NCBI GenBank assembly: GCA_015272515.1
Contig: JACYLN010000003.1
Location: forward strand, 1 to 33,707
Reading direction: 5' to 3'
DNA: 33,707 nt
Source of the DNA: Leptolyngbyaceae cyanobacterium C42_A2020_001
GTDB taxonomy: Bacteria > Cyanobacteriota > Cyanobacteriia > Leptolyngbyales > Leptolyngbyaceae
Under the pieces are notes generated by a model, which worked only from the letters and a program-made list of their open reading frames with translations, ran no database searches and had not been told where the DNA came from. This document shows, piece by piece, positions 6,380 to 31,833 of the stretch; position 1 is the stretch's first letter, and every line of letters starts with the position of its first letter. Both the position numbers and the translations under genes were made by a program.

Positions 6380-7429
6380 TCAGGTTTCCGCTGGTTGACT
6401 GCTCACTGCCGATTCCCGACTACCTTCAACATAGTTCGCCCGAATTCGGTCTAAAACCTGATTGTCCACCGCTTCTCTCGCCAATCGAACCGCATTGAAA
6501 ATTGAGGGTGCTTGAGAACTGCCGTGACTAATGATGCAAATCCCATCTACACCCAGCAATAACCCACCACCATGTTCTGCGTGATCAATCCGTTGCTTGA
6601 TGCGCTTCAGGTTGGGCTTCAAAATCGAAACCCCCAACTTCCCGTGCATCCCCTGAGGCAGTTCCTCACGCAAAATCTGTAAAACCACTTCACCAACGGC
6701 TTCCGCGAACTTCAGCAGAATATTGCCCACAAAGCCATCGCAGACGATGACATCGAAATTGCCCGAAAGCACATCCCGCCCTTCCGCATTGCCAATGAAT
6801 GTCATGCGATCGCTTTCTTGCAAAAGCTGATGCGTTCGCAGCGCCAGTTCGTTGCCCTTACTCGGTTCCTCGCCGATATTCAATAAGCCAACTTTGGGAT
6901 CTGATACTCCCAGCACATACTGCGAGTAAATCGAACCCATGACCGCAAACTGCTCTAAAAACTTGGGGCGGCAATCTACATTCGCGCCCACATCCAATAC
7001 AATCACAGGTTTGCCAGCAATCATTGTTGGGAAAACCGCGCCGATCGCCGGACGATCAATTCCCGGTAACCGCCCCAAACGCAGTAGCCCCGCTGCCATT
7101 GCTGCACCAGAATGACCCGCAGATACAATGGCATCCGCTTTCCCTTTCTTCACCAAATCCATCGCGACATTAATTGACGCTTTGGGTTTACGCCGAAGAG
7201 CACTCAATGGCTCCTCGCCCATTTCCACGATATCTTCAGCCGGAACAATTTCTAGCGGCGATGAGGTTGTGTGATGGCGCATTGCGGCTTCGACCCGTTC
7301 CGGATCACCCACCAGCAACACTTCAACTCCCAATTCCTCTCGTGCTCTCAGTGCTCCAGCAACCACTTCACTGGGGGCGTGGTCTCCACCCATGGCATCA
7401 ATTGCAATCCGTGCCCGCGTCGATCCCAT
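6380..7429 (-). CDS. plsX: Phosphate acyltransferase PlsX
   Basis: Converts acyl-ACP to acyl-phosphate, the donor for the first acylation of glycerol 3-phosphate in the PlsX/PlsY route; it works at the membrane surface. The 349 residues start with RIAIDAMGGDHAP, the PlsX signature, and contain SAGHSGAAMAAG and VCDGFVGNILLK, other conserved blocks. It is the promoter-proximal gene of the minus-strand lipid cluster and is divergent from the phospholipase-D-like gene. The roughly 215 bases between them must hold both promoters. No clear ribosome binding site is visible before the ATG. Confidence 0.95.
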   Translation of the reverse strand: MGSTRARIAIDAMGGDHAPSEVVAGALRAREELGVEVLLVGDPERVEAAMRHHTTSSPLEIVPAEDIVEMGEEPLSALRRKPKASINVAMDLVKKGKADAIVSAGHSGAAMAAGLLRLGRLPGIDRPAIGAVFPTMIAGKPVIVLDVGANVDCRPKFLEQFAVMGSIYSQYVLGVSDPKVGLLNIGEEPSKGNELALRTHQLLQESDRMTFIGNAEGRDVLSGNFDVIVCDGFVGNILLKFAEAVGEVVLQILREELPQGMHGKLGVSILKPNLKRIKQRIDHAEHGGGLLLGVDGICIISHGSSQAPSIFNAVRLAREAVDNQVLDRIRANYVEGSRESAVSSQPAET

Positions 7430-7644: not shown

Positions 7645-9390
7645 GTGCATCTACGCCTTTTCCCTTTTATTTCCGCCACGATCGCAATTTCATTAGGGCT
7701 AGCAAGCTGTCGGCAGCCAGAGCCACCGCAGATCGTGCGCCCCTTGCCCTTGCCACAGGACGAGCGAATTCAAGTCTACATGAATCAAAATGCGGCAGCG
7801 AGTTACACGGAGCCGTACCGAACCTATACCCGCAATGGCGACAATCTAGAGCAAATAATGATTGATGCGATTTCAGCCGCCCGCTCTACGGTGGATGTGG
7901 CTGTGCAAGAGTTGCGTCTGCCCGGTATTGCTCAGGCACTCGTTGATCGCCATCGAGCCGGAGTCAGGGTGCGCGTGATTTTGGAGAATACTTACTCCCG
8001 TCCTTACAGCCAGTTCACCGCCGAAGAGGTTGCTCGCTTACCCGAACGAGAGCGCGATCGCTACCAGGAAGCTCGCCGCCTAATTGACCTGAGCAACGAT
8101 GAGCAACTCAGCCAGGATGAAATTAACCAGCGGGATGCATTGGTGATTTTAGACAATGCCCAGATTCCTCGAATTGACGACACGGCAGATGGTTCTGCTG
8201 GCAGCAACTTAATGCACCACAAATTCATTGTGGTTGACAGGCAAACGGTGATAGTCTCCTCGGCAAATCTCACCACTAGTGATGTCCACGGGGATTTCAA
8301 ATCCCAACACAGCCGAGGAAACGCGAACAACTTACTGAAAATAGCCAATTCTGAACTGGCGACTCTGTTCACCCAGGAATTTAATGTCATGTGGGGAGAT
8401 GGACCCGGTGCCAACCCCGACAGTTTGTTTGGTGTGAAGAAGCCATTTCAGCCTGCGCGGCAAGTGATGGTAGGAACCACTCCAGTTGAGGTGCAGTTTT
8501 CGCCAACACCTGGCTCTATCGCCTGGGAGCAAAGCAGCAATGGACTAATTGGCAAAACCCTGGATAGTTCGACGCAATCCGTTCAAATGGCGCTGTTTGT
8601 GTTTTCTGATCAACGACTGGTGAACTTGCTGGAAAGCGTGCATCAACGCGGCGTGGCAATTCAAACCCTGATCGACCCTGGATTCGCGTATCGATCTTAT
8701 AGCGAAGCGCTAGATATGCTGGGGATCAGCCTGGCAGAAAACTGCAAACTGGAGGCAAACAACCGCCCCTGGAAAAATGCGATCGCCACCGTTGGTGTTC
8801 CCCGGATGCCTCCTGGCGATTTACTGCATCACAAGTTTGGCTTAGTTGATCGCCAAACCGTTGTGACAGGTTCTCACAATTGGACGGATGCTGCAAATAC
8901 AGGGAATGATGAAACTGTCCTGGTGATTCGTAATAGCACCGTTGCAGCTCATTATTACCGAGAGTTTGAACGACTCTACACCGGAGCTGTTTTGGGCATT
9001 CCACCTGCCATTCAAAAGAAAGCGAGTAGATTCAATCAGCAATGCCAAACTGCTCTTGCTTCCGTTACTCAACCTAGCCCAACAAAAAACAGTCGTTCGT
9101 CCGTCGCTTCACCGGTTCTAGCGTCTTCTCAGGAACTATTAGAGGTATCCAAAGCTCCAGCTAGGGCGAGATTAACTAGCAAATCTGCTCGTTCTCAGGA
9201 CAAACGAATTAATCTGAACACCGCGACTCAGGCAGAACTGGAACAGCTACCAGGAGTTGGACCTGCACTGGCAAAGCGGATAATTGCAGCCCGTCAATTG
9301 AAACGCTTTAGTTCCTTAGCCGATTTGGATAAGGTGTCGGGTATTGGTCCAAAACTATTGCAAAAACTGGAGAATCAAGTTGAATGGTAG
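7645..9390 (+). CDS. Phospholipase D-like lipoprotein with C-terminal helix-hairpin-helix domain
   Basis: The 581-residue protein starts at GTG 7645; an in-frame stop at 7621 rules out a longer form. Residues 1-22 form a lipoprotein signal with lipobox LASC (Cys22). Two phospholipase-D motifs follow: H191-x-K193-x4-D198 in HHKFIVVDRQ and H395-x-K397-x4-D402 in HHKFGLVDRQ, both complete. After a Ser/Pro/Thr-rich linker, residues about 515-581 form a ComEA-like tandem helix-hairpin-helix domain (INLNTATQAELEQLPGVGPA). PLD-family enzymes cleave phosphodiesters in lipids or DNA, and this DNA-binding tail suggests a nuclease acting outside the cytoplasmic membrane, for example on incoming or environmental DNA. 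That role is inferred. The gene stands alone, divergent from plsX. Confidence 0.85.
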   Translation: MHLRLFPFISATIAISLGLASCRQPEPPQIVRPLPLPQDERIQVYMNQNAAASYTEPYRTYTRNGDNLEQIMIDAISAARSTVDVAVQELRLPGIAQALVDRHRAGVRVRVILENTYSRPYSQFTAEEVARLPERERDRYQEARRLIDLSNDEQLSQDEINQRDALVILDNAQIPRIDDTADGSAGSNLMHHKFIVVDRQTVIVSSANLTTSDVHGDFKSQHSRGNANNLLKIANSELATLFTQEFNVMWGDGPGANPDSLFGVKKPFQPARQVMVGTTPVEVQFSPTPGSIAWEQSSNGLIGKTLDSSTQSVQMALFVFSDQRLVNLLESVHQRGVAIQTLIDPGFAYRSYSEALDMLGISLAENCKLEANNRPWKNAIATVGVPRMPPGDLLHHKFGLVDRQTVVTGSHNWTDAANTGNDETVLVIRNSTVAAHYYREFERLYTGAVLGIPPAIQKKASRFNQQCQTALASVTQPSPTKNSRSSVASPVLASSQELLEVSKAPARARLTSKSARSQDKRINLNTATQAELEQLPGVGPALAKRIIAARQLKRFSSLADLDKVSGIGPKLLQKLENQVEW

Positions 9391-11828: not shown

Positions 11829-11831
11829 GTG

Positions 11832-12272
11832 ATGGAAGAACTTTCGGTAGAACGCTTCATTTTAGTGGTTGAAAACAATCCTGCCCATGTACGGTTGATC
11901 CAAACGGTATTAAGCGAGAGTGCGGTGCCGCATCGGGTGATGGCGATCGCGGATGGCAATGAAGCAATGCATTTTTTGCAGCGTCAAGGCATTTATGAAA
12001 ATGTTGATCGTCCCGATTTAGTATTACTGGACTTAAATTTACCAGGCAAGGATGGTAGAGATGTGCTCGCAGAAATGAAAACCGATGTGCATCTGCGGCG
12101 TATTCCAGTAGTAGTACTGACCAGTTCAACCAGGGAAGAAGATGTGGTGACCAGCTACACGCTGCAAGGAAATTGCTATGTGATTAAATCTCACGAAATC
12201 GAGTCATTAATTCAAGTCGTTAAACGCATCGAAGAGTTTTGGTTAGGAATTGTAACTCTTCCATCAGAGTAG
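11832..12272 (+). CDS. Rcp1-like single-domain response regulator with altered acidic pocket
   Basis: The 146-residue receiver domain has the Rcp1-type C-terminal tail (IEEFWLGIVTLP), a feature of regulators that pair with cyanobacterial phytochromes. The phosphoacceptor is Asp67 in LVLLDLNLP, the switch Thr is in VVVLTSS, and the conserved Lys is Lys119. The acidic pair near the N-terminus reads E14-N15 (VVENNPAH) where the family has E-D, so one Mg2+ ligand is replaced by Asn. ATG 11832 is chosen over the GTG three bases upstream. It lies about 380 bases before the phytochrome gene on the same strand, suggesting a second, perhaps modified, output partner. Confidence 0.88.
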   Translation: MEELSVERFILVVENNPAHVRLIQTVLSESAVPHRVMAIADGNEAMHFLQRQGIYENVDRPDLVLLDLNLPGKDGRDVLAEMKTDVHLRRIPVVVLTSSTREEDVVTSYTLQGNCYVIKSHEIESLIQVVKRIEEFWLGIVTLPSE

Positions 12273-12565
12273 CGACTCATGGAATAAAAACGTTTTGTCA
12301 ACAATCACAATTTTTTGTCTTTAAATAGAACGTTTAAGGAATTTTTATCGCTGAATAAATCGGTTGGTTTCTGTTAGAAAACCTTCTGGTTTATTTAAGA
12401 ATTCTTCTTCCATATCTCATCGTCTTCTGCGCTATCCTGCTGACTGGGGAAGAAAATAGGAGATTAAAAGTAAAGAATTGCAGAACAGGTTTGACCCATC
12501 TGCAAACTCAACCTTGTCCATTGAAACTACTTTTATTTCTCCTAATTTTTGCAGGTTGATTGCTT

Positions 12566-12598
12566 CCACTTTTTGAAATCAATTTCAAAAAAAAGTGG
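12566..12598. promoter_or_regulatory. Long imperfect palindrome upstream of the phytochrome gene
   Basis: CCACTTTTTGAAAT (12566-12579) faces ATTTCAAAAAAAAGTGG (12582-12598), giving a 14-bp stem with a 3-base bulge in the A/T run and almost no loop. It ends about 52 bases before the preferred phytochrome ATG. It could be an operator, a 5' UTR hairpin or a cruciform. The rest of 12273-12620 is AT-rich with no gene visible. Confidence 0.5.
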
Positions 12599-12650
12599 AG
12601 ATGGTTCATAGAACAAATTATTGGATGTGATTCAAGTTTGGAGGGCGATG

Positions 12651-14960
12651 ATGGTAGAGAGGAATTTAGGGACGCAGGAGATTAATCTAACAAGTCTGAA
12701 GCAACCACCAATTCATGTACTAACTCAAATTCAACCGCATGGTGTGTTGTTGGTATTGCAAGAGCCGGAGTTAACCATTCTGCAAGTCAGTCGCAATTCG
12801 TCTACTGCACTCGGTATTTCAGCGGATCAGCTTTTGGGGCGATCGCTCGATGCCATTCTCGACCCCTTCCAGCTCGATCGCTTGCAGGTGGGCTTAGCTT
12901 ACAACAATCTGGATCTGATCAACCCCAGCAAAATTTGGGTGCGGCGTAAAGGCGATGATTATCAAGTGTTTGATGCCGTCTTTCATCGGAGTGCCGATAA
13001 CTTTTTAGTTCTGGAACTTGAACCCGCCCTGACGCAAGAAAACATTCCCTTCTTAAGCTTCTATCACCTGGCAAGAGCGTCGATTAACCAACTGGAAACC
13101 ACCTCCAGCCTGCGAGATTTTTGCCACATTATTGTCCAAGAAGTTCGCAACGTCACCGGGTTCGATCGCGTCATGCTCTACAAATTTGATGACGACGGAC
13201 ACGGCGAAGTCTTAGCAGAAGAAAAGCTCGACGAGATGGAATCTTACCTGGGCTTGCACTTTCCAGAGTCTGATATTCCTCAGCCCGCCCGCAAGATGTT
13301 CGTTTCCAACTGGATTCGGGTGATTCCCGACGCTCACGCAGAGCCAGTGGATTTACTTCCGGCAACCAACCCTGTGACCCATCAACCCGTTGACCTCACC
13401 CTCTCGATTCTCCGCAGTCCCTTCTCCTGCCACATGGAGTATTTGCACAACATGGGCGTGGGTTCATCCCTCACCATTTCGTTGATGAAAGACCAGAAAC
13501 TGTGGGGTTTAATCGCCTGTCACCACCGCACGCCCAAGTATGTACCCTACGAACTGCGGAAAGCTTGCGAATTTTTGGGACGGGTGATTTTTGCCGAAAT
13601 TTCCACGCGAGAAGAAGCTGCTGACTATAGCTACCGCACCATGCTGACACGAGTGCAGTCGGCATTGATTGAGCAAATGTCTGAAGCAGACAACTTTATT
13701 GATGGCTTGATTCAGCACGAACCAAACCTGCTGGATTTGACCGAGGCAACGGGAGCGGCGGTTTGCTTGAACGGCAAATGGACGATGCTTGGGCGCACCC
13801 CTACCGAAGAGGAATTGAACTACCTGCTGCAATGGTTGGCAAAAACGGTGGAAGACGACGTGTTTTACACTGACTCGCTGCCGTTGGTTTACTCCGATGC
13901 TCAACGGTACAAGGAAGTTGCCAGCGGGCTATTGGCGATTCCGATTTCTAAACGTAGTTATGTGCTGTGGTTTCGCCCGGAGGTGATTCAAACGGTGAAC
14001 TGGGGCGGCGATCCCAACCACGCCTACGAGTTGAAACAGTCTGACAATCAGGCGCGACTCTGCCCCCGCAAATCCTTCAGTTTGTGGAAGGAAACGGTAC
14101 GGTTGAAGTCGCTGCCGTGGAAGCCTGTGGAAGTTCAAGCATCGCTGGAGTTGCGGAAGGCGATCGTCAACATTGTGTTGCGCCAGGCAGAAGAGTTGGC
14201 GCTGCTAGCTCAAGACCTGGAGCGATCGAATGCCGAGTTGAGGAAATTTGCCTATGTTGCGTCTCACGACTTGCAGGAGCCATTGAACCAGGTCGCGAAT
14301 TACGTGCAACTGCTGGAAATGCGCTACCACGATCGCCTCGATCAAGATGCCAGCGAATTCATTGACTTTGCCGTGGAAGGGGTCAGCCTGATGCAAACCC
14401 TGATTGACGACGTGCTGGCATATTCAAAGGTTGATCTGAAGGGGATTGAGTGGGAACTAACCGAAGTAGAACGAGCGCTGAATCAGGCACTCAACAACCT
14501 GCGCGGACGAATTGCCGAAACGGAAGCCGTAATCACCTACGACTCAATGCCAACCATTGTGTCAGATGGCACCCAGTTGATGCAGTTGTTCCAGAACCTG
14601 ATCGGCAACGCCATTAAGTTCCAGAAAAAAGATGAGCCGCCTCATATTCATATCGGCGTGCAGCGGCAGGATGATGCCTGGCTATTCTCTGTGCAAGACA
14701 ACGGCATTGGCATTGCGCCCCAATACCGCGATCGCATCTTCGTCATCTTCCAGCGCCTGCACACCCGCGACGAATACCCCGGTTCCGGTATGGGACTTGC
14801 CATCTGCAAGAAGATTGCGGAATGTCATCGTGGACGAATTTGGGTTGAATCTGAACCGGGTAACGGCGCAACCTTCTATTTCACCATTCCTGTAGGAGGA
14901 CGCGATCGCAGCCATGCAACCGGATGGAAGAAACAAAACAATCTTTTTGATCGAAGATAA
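12651..14960 (+). CDS. cph1: Cph1/CphA-type phytochrome sensor histidine kinase
   Basis: A red/far-red photoreceptor that autophosphorylates and passes phosphate to an Rcp1 regulator. Domains in the 769 residues are PAS (about 20-125), GAF (about 145-315), PHY (about 330-505), HisKA and HATPase_c (about 515-765). Cys260-His261 in RSPFSCHMEYL matches the phycocyanobilin-binding Cys259 of Cph1. No N-terminal Cys of the biliverdin type is present. The DIP motif has Asp208, the PHY tongue has PRKSF (472-476), and the phosphoacceptor is His539 in ASHDLQEPL. ATG 12651 is preferred because GGAGGG ends 5 bases upstream; the frame is open back to a TTG at 12621. The last 47 bases overlap the next regulator gene. 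Confidence 0.95.
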   Translation: MVERNLGTQEINLTSLKQPPIHVLTQIQPHGVLLVLQEPELTILQVSRNSSTALGISADQLLGRSLDAILDPFQLDRLQVGLAYNNLDLINPSKIWVRRKGDDYQVFDAVFHRSADNFLVLELEPALTQENIPFLSFYHLARASINQLETTSSLRDFCHIIVQEVRNVTGFDRVMLYKFDDDGHGEVLAEEKLDEMESYLGLHFPESDIPQPARKMFVSNWIRVIPDAHAEPVDLLPATNPVTHQPVDLTLSILRSPFSCHMEYLHNMGVGSSLTISLMKDQKLWGLIACHHRTPKYVPYELRKACEFLGRVIFAEISTREEAADYSYRTMLTRVQSALIEQMSEADNFIDGLIQHEPNLLDLTEATGAAVCLNGKWTMLGRTPTEEELNYLLQWLAKTVEDDVFYTDSLPLVYSDAQRYKEVASGLLAIPISKRSYVLWFRPEVIQTVNWGGDPNHAYELKQSDNQARLCPRKSFSLWKETVRLKSLPWKPVEVQASLELRKAIVNIVLRQAEELALLAQDLERSNAELRKFAYVASHDLQEPLNQVANYVQLLEMRYHDRLDQDASEFIDFAVEGVSLMQTLIDDVLAYSKVDLKGIEWELTEVERALNQALNNLRGRIAETEAVITYDSMPTIVSDGTQLMQLFQNLIGNAIKFQKKDEPPHIHIGVQRQDDAWLFSVQDNGIGIAPQYRDRIFVIFQRLHTRDEYPGSGMGLAICKKIAECHRGRIWVESEPGNGATFYFTIPVGGRDRSHATGWKKQNNLFDRR

Positions 14961-29687: not shown

Positions 29688-30182
29688 TTACTTAACTTGA
29701 TTAAAAAGAAACGGCTTAACAGAAGAAACCATTCGCTCCAACTCTGTCTTGTTATGTATGAGAAGATCATGCCCCCATAATCCATCAGTATTATCAGCAC
29801 AATTAGCTGAAAGAGACTCTCCAATCGCTTCAAAACTCTTCCCAAGAGTACTTCTTAATTCCTCTGGATTAGATAAAACTCCAAGAACAAACACTTTGTC
29901 CTTTACATCATCTGGAATCTGTTTCTTTACGTAATCAAGGCGACCTTCTTCTCTATCAAAATCAATAAGTAATACAAACCATCTATTCGGATACTGTCGC
30001 ATTGTAGGTATAAAGTTCGTTGTGAACTTCTCTATTACTGCTTTCCAGCCACCGACATATGGCAAAACTTGAATTGATCGTGCATTCAGTTGAGGATGAA
30101 GCAAAAAAACATTTGCTAGGTCTGAGTCAGCCTCATCTTCGGGCAACACAAGAAGATGTGGCAAGTACTTATTAACGCTCAT
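29688..30182 (-). CDS. TOPRIM-like small protein partnered with an AAA ATPase
   Basis: The 164 residues match no named family I can state with confidence. The pattern suggests a TOPRIM or DUF4276/RloB-like fold: acidic motif LPEDEAD (Glu15, Glu17, Asp19) after a hydrophobic first strand, then D74-x-D76 in VLLIDFDREEG, then VFVLGVLSNPEEL. Such E...DxD arrangements bind Mg2+ in OLD-type and PARIS AriB nucleases. The C-terminal LWGHDLLIHNKTELERM looks conserved. The start overlaps the stop of the ATPase gene (ATGA, 30179-30182), so the two are coupled. No signal peptide or membrane helix. Function is inferred as the nuclease or effector arm of a two-protein system. Confidence 0.7.
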   Translation of the reverse strand: MSVNKYLPHLLVLPEDEADSDLANVFLLHPQLNARSIQVLPYVGGWKAVIEKFTTNFIPTMRQYPNRWFVLLIDFDREEGRLDYVKKQIPDDVKDKVFVLGVLSNPEELRSTLGKSFEAIGESLSANCADNTDGLWGHDLLIHNKTELERMVSSVKPFLFNQVK

Positions 30183-31282
30183 AATTCTGTATCACCAAGG
30201 ATTAAGCTATTTATAAGATCGCCACTAATAGATATTTCGCTCAGTGATCGAATCAAAGTTGGCTCTAGATGGCTTTTCCGATCAAGCAAAAAAGTATTTT
30301 CACTCGAAAATTTTCGGATAGCCTCTTCATTATGCGAGGTTGCCAAAAGTTGCCCATAGCTCTTGAAAGAACGTCGTAGAGAAATAACGAAATGTCCAAC
30401 CTCTGACAAAGACAGGTAATTATCAGGCTCGTCCCAGAAACAAAAAAGTGGTCCGTAATATTTATTAGCAGCTAAGACGACAGCGCAAAGGAAGAAACAT
30501 TTTTCTCCATCAGACAAGTCTTTAAATTCAATGGTCAAGTTTGTGTTATTTTTTTCAAACCTGACAATCATACTTTTGAAGTCTTTTCCGATTAATTCAT
30601 TTTGAATATCACTAATGTCGGGCATTACTGATTGGAGGTATTTGTCTATCTCCTTATAAGCAGCAGGATAGCGGCTCAGCAATCCTGAAAACCACTCTCC
30701 AAAATTTGAACCATCTCGTTTTGGCTCCAAAGTTTCACCGTTAGAGTCTCCAGTTATCAAACTTGGAATCGGAGCTAAAATAATCATGCGTGCGAGCCAA
30801 GTTCTGAAAATACGGAGTGGGTCTGTTTCCGACTGTTCCTGAATTACTGGAAGAGCAATAAGATGCCAATCCACCAAAAACTGAGCTTCTCGATTTCGTG
30901 AAGTAAGAGTAACTTGAGCTTCTTTTCTAGAGTAAACTGGCTCTCCTGAAACTAACAGTTGTTCTTCAAATAATCGAAGCTCTCTAAAGCCTTCTGGTAA
31001 CTCCAATGCAAGCACATATTTATACAACTTTCTTTCAAGTAGTGTCTCTATTTCAAATCGAATTGGAACGTTAGATCTGTTGGGGGGAAAATCTTTGGGT
31101 TGAACTAGTTGCCCAATCCTATTGATACCTCGACCAATGCTTTGAAGCAACTCTAGCGCACTAGCAATTGTTGATTTACCTACACCATTTCTTCCAATTA
31201 AAAGTGCGGATGACATTTTATCGAGAGAAAGCTCAAAATTCTCCAGACATCTGAAGTTATGTACATACAACCTTTGGAGCAT
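30179..31282 (-). CDS. AAA ATPase of the RecF/OLD/AAA_21 type
   Basis: The 367 residues have the ABC-like head of RecF/OLD-type ATPases: Walker A GRNGVGKST (30-38), signature LSDGE (256-260), Walker B FCFWDEPDNYLSL (Asp284, Glu285) and the H-loop LLATSHNEEA (His317). The N-terminal LQRLYVHNFRCLENFEL is typical of AAA_21/RecF-like proteins. It lacks a fused TOPRIM domain, so it is not a full OLD nuclease; the acidic partner is encoded by the overlapping downstream gene. The pair is AT-rich (about 35-42% GC in sampled lines) and free of HIP1 sites, unlike flanking genes. Defence pairs such as PARIS and RloAB have the same ATPase-plus-small-partner logic, but I cannot place it in a named system. 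Confidence 0.85.
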   Translation of the reverse strand: MLQRLYVHNFRCLENFELSLDKMSSALLIGRNGVGKSTIASALELLQSIGRGINRIGQLVQPKDFPPNRSNVPIRFEIETLLERKLYKYVLALELPEGFRELRLFEEQLLVSGEPVYSRKEAQVTLTSRNREAQFLVDWHLIALPVIQEQSETDPLRIFRTWLARMIILAPIPSLITGDSNGETLEPKRDGSNFGEWFSGLLSRYPAAYKEIDKYLQSVMPDISDIQNELIGKDFKSMIVRFEKNNTNLTIEFKDLSDGEKCFFLCAVVLAANKYYGPLFCFWDEPDNYLSLSEVGHFVISLRRSFKSYGQLLATSHNEEAIRKFSSENTFLLDRKSHLEPTLIRSLSEISISGDLINSLILGDTEL

Positions 31283-31476
31283 ATTAGAATAACTCCGAGT
31301 TTTGAGAAATGAAAGAACTTTTGGATAGTCTCCTTAACCAATGTACACTATCGACAAATTCAAACGGAGCCATACAGGGAAGGTATTGTTAGCTAAGCCT
31401 ACTACTCGTACCAAAAAGAATCTTCTTTCTGAGAAATCCTCTAAGCTTATATCAAAGCTAAAATCCCGAATCCCTT

Positions 31477-31833
31477 ATGTCTATTCAAGTTTACGGAATT
31501 CCTAACTGCGGTACCTGCAAAAAAGCTTTCACCTGGTTGGAGAGCAACGGCGTTGAGTACGAATTCATCAACACTAAAGAGCACCCGCCCACCCAAACTA
31601 TGATCCAGGAGTGGGTGAATGCCCTCGGCTCAAAACCGATGCGAAACACATCGGGACAATCTTACCGGGTATTGGGCACGGTCAAAGACGACTGGACCGA
31701 TGCTGAATGGGTGGAGGCGTTTGCCAACGATGCCATGCTGCTGAAACGTCCTCTGTTTGTTAAAGATGGAGCTGCGGTGCTGGTAGGTTTTCGCGACAAA
31801 GACGAGGTGATTCGGCAGAAGTTGGGCGTTTAG
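31477..31833 (+). CDS. Spx/MgsR/ArsC-family protein
   Basis: The 118 residues form a thioredoxin-like ArsC fold with the N-terminal redox motif GIPNCGTCKKAF (CxxC). The length and motif fit Spx, MgsR or YffB-type proteins better than arsenate reductase proper. C-terminal LLKRPLFVKDGAAVLVGF is the family's conserved end. No arsenic genes are nearby, so a redox or regulatory role is more likely than arsenate resistance. Its stop is 2 bases from the stop of the convergent CIA30 gene. Confidence 0.87.
   Translation: MSIQVYGIPNCGTCKKAFTWLESNGVEYEFINTKEHPPTQTMIQEWVNALGSKPMRNTSGQSYRVLGTVKDDWTDAEWVEAFANDAMLLKRPLFVKDGAAVLVGFRDKDEVIRQKLGV

Follow-up and report, generated by a model that had tools for sequence, protein, structure and literature searches.

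The window analysed here, a stretch of 33,707 nucleotides (positions 1-33,707, forward strand, of contig JACYLN010000003.1 of Leptolyngbyaceae cyanobacterium C42_A2020_001), carries on its plus strand a gene for a 581-residue protein in which a lipoprotein signal, a bilobed phospholipase D (PLD) core and a tandem helix-hairpin-helix (HhH) domain are joined. The parts of the gene are as follows.

7645..9390 (stop codon included), + strand: lipoprotein gene (PLD core, EF-hand-type loop and HhH domain), probable ComA orthologue; GTG start, 581 aa
7645..7710, + strand: signal peptide and lipobox LASC, residues 1-22, with Cys22 predicted to be lipidated; Cys aligned in 51/58 orthologues
7747..8409, + strand: PLD lobe 1, about residues 35-255; structure model, PLDc_2
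8044..8133, + strand: helix-loop-helix holding the EF-hand-type loop, residues 134-163; modelled helices 134-147 and 157-163
8086..8121, + strand: EF-hand-type loop DLSNDEQLSQDE, residues 148-159; liganding-type residues at positions 1, 3, 5 and 12 in 58/58 orthologues
8215..8268, + strand: HKD motif 1 (HHKFIVVD at H191), residues 191-208; H, K and D in 58/58
8458..9042, + strand: PLD lobe 2, about residues 272-466; structure model, PLDc_2, aligns to Nuc 1byr
8827..8880, + strand: HKD motif 2 (HHKFGLVD at H395), residues 395-412; H, K and D in 58/58
9043..9198, + strand: linker, residues 467-518, mostly without confident structure; pLDDT below 50 at 479-518
9199..9387, + strand: ComEA-type tandem HhH domain, residues 519-581; HHH_3 1.8e-18, solved ComEA chains at E 5e-9 and 9.5e-9

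The combination of a lipobox, two intact HKD motifs and a C-terminal HhH domain in one protein, described in an earlier note on this DNA, was confirmed from the open reading frame, the motifs and Pfam; the EF-hand-type loop is a further part, absent from that note. In the window protein, PLDc_2 matches in two stretches (E 3.3e-44) and HHH_3 at residues 519-579 (E 1.8e-18). The HxK(x)4D motifs at H191 and H395 are the only ones in the protein, and two such motifs in a bilobed PLD fold on a single chain assign it to the PLD superfamily. Among NCBIfam models, none scored above its curated cut-off; the best NucT model reached 56 bits against 297, and that of the DISARM protein DrmC 66.8 against 133. 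Solved chains matched by the core are mitochondrial cardiolipin hydrolase (Zucchini family), Nuc and NucT, and those matched by the tail are ComEA. The genome holds one match to the protein at E 0.001.

Upstream on the minus strand lie genes matching the fatty-acid synthesis families FA_synthesis, ACP_syn_III, Acyl_transf_1 and Acyltransferase, which we take to be plsX, fabH, fabD and plsC. The plsX-type gene adjoining the window gene is a neighbour in 7 of 51 loci and the next most shared neighbour family in 11, so that no conserved neighbourhood was found in these loci, several of which have short flanks, and operon or neighbourhood evidence was rejected. Elsewhere in the window, a response regulator is followed by a phytochrome-type histidine kinase (PAS_2, GAF, PHY, HisKA, HATPase_c) at 11829-14960, and the G+C content falls to 0.385 at 30001-31500, compared with 0.445-0.539 in the remaining 1500-base windows.

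Conservation across relatives and an EF-hand-type loop

A genome scan yielded 31 loci, all cyanobacterial, which together with further genomes gave 58 intact orthologous frames, L027, L028 and L029 having been left out as frames split in pieces. A wider set of 77 rows includes a Vibrio plasmid protein; its tree omits L033 and L037, which were treated as duplicates of L003 and L011. Both HKD motifs keep their H, K and D in all 58 frames, D198 and D402 included, and 51 have a Cys at the position of Cys22, so that chance does not explain the architecture. The 12 frames without an HhH tail keep these catalytic residues too; thus, it is the catalytic core, not the tail, that is always retained. This bears on the possibility that the protein serves as a DNA receptor, its PLD core having a structural role and no catalytic one, a reading that would fit the ComEA-like tail and the rule in other competent bacteria, where, according to passages of one paper, the DNA receptor ComEA is nuclease-free (PMC12455585). 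Given the invariance of both motifs even where the tail is missing, we regard it as very improbable.

The tail itself is present in 46 of the 58 frames and in 53 of the 77 rows of the wider set, and a lipobox-like Cys, by a loose rule, in 62 of the 77; in some relatives, inspection by eye found a hydrophobic N-terminal segment without Cys in place of the lipobox. Hence the earlier description of a lipoprotein with an HhH domain holds for the window protein but not as a general rule. On the tree of the 77-row set, the fewest changes are 12 for the HhH tail, 10 for the lipobox-like Cys and 3 for the EF-hand-type loop, and the type of anchor has been swapped several times between a lipobox and an uncleaved hydrophobic segment. 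Because the HhH tail is found in L063, the deepest cyanobacterial row of the quick tree, and has a weak match in the Vibrio protein (HHH_3 4.1e-5, under the cut-off), it is probably old and was then shed repeatedly, the root being unsure with the Vibrio outgroup on a long branch. The plasmid collection held no locus covering 80% of the query, and its best matches were Vibrio plasmid proteins, with about 36% identity over 66%. One of these, from a Vibrio coralliilyticus plasmid (L062:5881-7332), is a PLD protein with about 36% identity over the core, without the EF loop and, by the rule used, without a lipobox; with its weak C-terminal HhH it represents the two-part plan outside cyanobacteria. 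At locus L069, a second frame of 103 codons, starting at 6704 on the plus strand downstream of the full gene, matches only query residues 383-467 and is perhaps a partial duplicate.

The loop at residues 148-159 has the build of an EF-hand, whose 12-residue loop carries acidic or amide ligands at positions 1, 3 and 5 and Glu at 12 and is set between helices. Across the 58 frames, position 1 is always D, position 12 always E and position 5 always D or N; at position 3, 57 frames have N or D and the window copy S, and position 6 is G in 38 but E in the window copy, which therefore falls outside the full canonical rule, as set in this analysis, that 37 of the 58 follow. In the wider set the loop occurs in 73 of 77 rows, missing from L071, L072, L081 and the Vibrio protein. 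When the window protein was shuffled 20,000 times, a looser form of the pattern arose in 41 cases. Pfam EF-hand families gave no match to the window protein at E up to 1; EF-hand_5 matched 23 of 40 members at that threshold, with a best E of 1.6e-4, and in the three relatives shown the best score was 16.9 bits against a cut-off of 25.9. From the pattern of its residues, the loop would bind Ca2+. Other cyanobacterial EF-hand proteins have been described in a paper whose text contains neither phospholipase D nor PLD (PMC7016017).

Modelled fold and related PLD enzymes

The structure model of the window protein (pLDDT 88.3, pTM 0.77) consists of a confident core and a confident HhH domain with a low-confidence linker between them. 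In structural alignments with VIA-align, Serratia phospholipase D 7e0m ranks first (Z 32.8, rmsd 3.1, 329 aligned), followed closely by PLD3 and PLD4 (Z 30.5-31.2, rmsd 3.0-3.3, 317-330 aligned); Streptomyces phospholipase D scores Z of about 25-26, and Nuc 1byr aligns on lobe 2 (Z 22.0, rmsd 1.5, 148 aligned). With a phospholipase on top and PLD3 and PLD4 just under it, the fold does not decide between nuclease and lipase. According to passages of the respective papers, the shortened gate loop of 7e0m has been likened to those of nucleases (PMC8004604), and PLD3 is a nuclease without phospholipase activity (PMC11653685). PLD-type nucleases have an elongated, positively charged groove at the active site, and the PLD chemistry cleaves the backbone via a phosphohistidine (PMC5714352).

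An enzyme that acts on envelope lipids, either a phospholipase D or a lipid transferase, and to which the HhH tail was added for regulation, would accord with the top structural match and with the best solved-chain sequence matches, which are named mitochondrial cardiolipin hydrolase, although one of them, 4ggk, has been called the endonuclease Zucchini (PMC5714352). Yet most relatives carry a ComEA-type HhH domain on the same chain, Nuc and NucT are matched as well, the cardiolipin synthase model scores 15 bits against 290, far under its cut-off, and the gene tracks ComEC, as described below, all of which makes a lipid substrate quite unlikely. We predict that the window protein acts on DNA rather than lipid. 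The earlier proposal of a DNA-binding protein with a phosphodiesterase core, anchored in the envelope, is well supported as a prediction from sequence and model.

ComEC: nuclease domain decay and shared presence

The metal motif of the ComEC nuclease domain, taken as H.[HDN].D[HG] beyond residue 350, occurs in none of the 35 ComECs from this class as against 21 of 30 from the other classes of the phylum, which are non-photosynthetic, in a sample that is not random and comprises the best-scoring rows over many families plus four short frames of family f23. The ComECs of G264 (333 aa) and G316 (117 aa), both incomplete, and that of G326, near a contig edge, were set aside. Similarly, Lactamase_B was matched in 0 of 6 ComECs of this class and in 4 of 4 from the other classes. 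A profile of 23 decayed ComEC domains nonetheless aligns with that of 21 intact ones over 221 columns (hhalign E 5.5e-21), the metal motifs being replaced, and the modelled C-terminal domain of the ComEC of the window genome (pLDDT 89.6) has as its best match the ComEC nuclease domain 9ic4 (Z 22.8, rmsd 3.0, 222 aligned), with the metal residues gone. The ComECs of G478, G546, G405 and G444 (512-544 aa) are too short to hold a nuclease domain. In G027 (C1:416584-417372, L096), the ComEC domain lies in an open frame of 2251 codons, other listed frames having mostly 510-940.

In passages of a previous paper, the prevailing ComEC profile in Cyanobacteria is one that lacks Lactamase_B (PMC6299819); what is new relative to these is that, in most of our sample, the domain persists as a decayed copy. 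More broadly, almost half of ComECs are described, in passages of another paper, as being without the nuclease domain, with strand degradation there posed as an open question (PMC8579336). A strict complementation between ComEC and the window protein is argued against by 9 of the 30 ComECs from other classes, which also are without the metal motif, in genomes without a match to the window protein at 1e-10.

The presence of the two genes was compared in 388 genomes of the class (completeness 95), with the window gene sought at E 1e-30 and ComEC at E 1e-10. The window gene was found in 330 and ComEC in 329; a recount by script gave 324 genomes with both, 53 with neither and 11 discordant. Six of the latter have the window gene without ComEC (G101, G278, G391, G483, G492, G559) and five ComEC without the window gene (G051, G157, G264, G326, G489). 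The G391 case perhaps reflects assembly gaps, since the secretin is missing too, and among the other five are the truncated ComEC of G264 and the edge-adjacent one of G326. At E 0.01, no trace of the PLD core was found in G051, G326 and G264, and G489 yielded only an HhH match. The sole match in G157 (C55:54950-55117, L153) is short, confined to residues 8-61 and perhaps a remnant. Fisher's test on the 388 genomes gives p 2e-52 with kinship ignored; since related genomes do not count as independent, this value is not used as a probability. Indeed, 17 of the 53 double-negatives are among the listed absences, and 16 of these are genomes of 1.6-1.9 Mb from family f19, the other being G393 (f50); with co-loss dominated by a single reduced-genome family, independent loss events are few.

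In a draw across the phylum, both genes are also absent from f20 (G111, G123) and f6 (G147, G183), and G143, which shares the genus code of the latter two, has both. Within this class, every genome listed had a match to the window protein at 1e-69 or stronger, whereas the genome-best matches listed from other classes were 1e-20 or weaker, and the other classes were therefore taken to be without an orthologue. Of 12 genomes that lack both genes, five keep the pilus secretin (G393, G111, G123, G165, G223) and seven have lost it; three or more lineages thus lost both genes without losing the secretin. MgtE, the sole control family tried, is kept in 11 of these 12, so that the loss is tied more closely to the DNA channel than to a single gene chosen arbitrarily; overall, MgtE is found in 60 of 70 genomes and is missing from 6 of the 47 that have both genes.

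The same domains and the same envelope anchoring would also serve a surface DNase breaking down DNA from outside the cell, whether as a source of phosphate and nucleosides or as a barrier, independently of transformation, and NucT of Helicobacter pylori has been linked to purine salvage as well as to transformation (PMC5714352). The presence of the window gene follows that of ComEC, however, which nutrient use does not require, and Pho-box-like pairs, scored at 13 of 16 matches to the consensus, are no commoner upstream of the gene (8 of 54 regions) than before other genes (56 of 310), so that phosphate regulation was rejected. We accordingly consider a role independent of transformation unlikely. 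Of the two functions suggested in the earlier note, nutrient-DNA degradation has thus found no positive support, and the processing of incoming DNA is favoured on the strength of the co-retention and co-loss with ComEC, the missing metal motif of ComEC and what has been published on ComA from Synechocystis.

A proposed role in DNA uptake and its relation to known systems

The window protein is very probably the orthologue of ComA, Synechocystis slr0197, the comparison being with the published description of slr0197 rather than with its sequence. Three points argue for this assignment: the description fits, in that the anchor, the HhH domain and the PLD core are all present in the window protein; the window protein is the sole exported protein of its genome with HHH_3 and a nuclease-type domain; and G014 encodes a protein of the same architecture. 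The primary papers on ComA are reportedly those of Yoshihara et al. 2001 and of Yura, Toh and Go (1999). The PLD core would be the endonuclease domain meant in the ComA description, and a review, in the passage available, reports on an slr0197 mutant as bearing on the need for the gene in transformation.

The window genome encodes five HHH_3 proteins, of which only the window protein combines an export signal with a nuclease-type domain. Another is Tex-like, has a YqgF resolvase-like domain as well and has its start cut off in the stretch examined, and a further one, of 204 aa, has no evident signal peptide. In the HHH_3 protein at L188:487-2763, pentapeptide repeats and HhH occur together. 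A lipoprotein-like protein of 336 aa (L187:651-1658) matches, at E 0.01, no Pfam family besides a borderline HhH; it could be another DNA-binding lipoprotein, perhaps the receptor or a partner, and has a counterpart of about 340 aa in the distant cyanobacterium G014 (L190:614-1672). Two nuclease families, PF01223, which we take to be that of EndA, and SNase (PF00565), were considered as rivals in the window genome and rejected, neither giving a match at E 1e-8; they are found in 18 and 48, respectively, of 70 selected genomes.

We propose, with a probability of roughly 0.65, that the window protein, most likely the slr0197 orthologue, acts in cyanobacterial competence as both nuclease and DNA receptor and supplies single strands to ComEC. 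The proposal draws on the observed architecture, the conservation of catalytic and loop residues, the modelled fold, the loss of the ComEC motif in the sample and the co-occurrence of the two genes, and it is from these that we infer DNA cleavage, Ca2+ binding, the choice of strand and orthology to slr0197. The protein would be held in the envelope by a lipid anchor, replaced in some relatives by a membrane helix, and the HhH tail, on its flexible linker, would grip incoming double-stranded DNA by its backbone. Its core with two HKD motifs would then cut phosphodiester bonds via a phosphohistidine, a chemistry that is not known to require a catalytic metal, so that the non-imported strand would be degraded or nicked and single strands passed to ComEC, whose own metallo-beta-lactamase-type nuclease domain would be catalytically dead in this class. 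Extracytoplasmic Ca2+ on the EF-hand-type loop may shape or switch lobe 1, tying activity or stability to Ca2+. Counted against a role in competence is the absence of the HhH tail from 24 of the 77 rows, where the gene nonetheless persists; such lineages would have to bind DNA by the core or via another protein.

More tentatively, and with somewhat less than even odds, the class as a whole may have given up the ComEC nuclease and come to use an anchored PLD nuclease fused to a DNA receptor and gated by an extracytoplasmic EF-hand. If so, strand degradation would have one more solution in addition to the ComEC domain and EndA, and DNA uptake in the class would be calcium-dependent; if Ca2+ controls the window protein, a plain component of the medium would control the transformability of biotechnological cyanobacteria. 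Because a conserved, anchored, DNA-binding PLD protein tracks ComEC in most genomes, the question of strand degradation becomes amenable to a simple mutant test with laboratory strains.

If the ComA reading holds, the window protein belongs to a known competence family; of interest are the EF-hand-type loop, a ComEC nuclease that has decayed throughout the sample of the class, and the direct test that these allow. The passages of the ComA literature that were available mention neither an EF-hand nor the PLD nature of the Synechocystis protein, both seen in the window protein, nor a link to ComEC decay or repeated loss of the HhH tail; searches by title and beginning of abstract, with subscription journals mostly outside their range, found no paper on a PLD-HhH protein of cyanobacteria. 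Whereas the window protein has a lipobox anchor, the PLD-EF-HhH protein of G014 (L077) is anchored by a hydrophobic N-terminal segment without the lipobox Cys. In passages of a paper by Wendt and Pakrasi, cyanobacterial ComA is said to resemble the gram-positive version, the gram-negative one being typically soluble and not membrane-anchored (PMC6567925). A genome-wide screen in Synechococcus elongatus lists ComEA, ComEC, ComF and DprA as competence factors, and its main text, in the parts available, contains no word beginning with nuclease or phospholipase (PMC7125226).

Among DNA-binding and PLD proteins of other systems, several show partial likeness to the window protein. PLD3 and PLD4, which are ssDNA exonucleases and lysosomal 5' exonucleases, have the same bilobed single-chain PLD core at 16-19% identity; according to the passages available, PLD3 is synthesized in the form of a type II membrane protein, comparable to the predicted envelope anchoring of the window protein, but has an HKD/HKE site where the window protein has two HKD motifs, and neither an HhH domain nor an EF-hand is mentioned for PLD3 or PLD4. 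ComEA, which is not known to have a PLD core, shares the HhH domain, with TIGR01259 matching residues 511-579 only (1.3e-18) at 67.1 bits against a whole-protein cut-off of 152.35. NucT has one HKD motif per chain and acts as a dimer, whereas the window protein has two in one chain. Like the window protein, NucT of H. pylori combines the PLD fold with a place at the envelope, being a membrane-associated periplasmic nuclease implicated in transformation (PMC5714352), and, in passages of a further paper, the ComEC of this species, which is without EndA, has no nuclease domain (PMC12455585). EndA belongs to a different family, one with no match in the window genome at E 1e-8 (PF01223), but passages of the same paper describe for Streptococcus pneumoniae a ComEC domain that is probably inactive and a separate membrane-bound nuclease, EndA, that does the work (PMC12455585), which is the division of labour that we propose here too.
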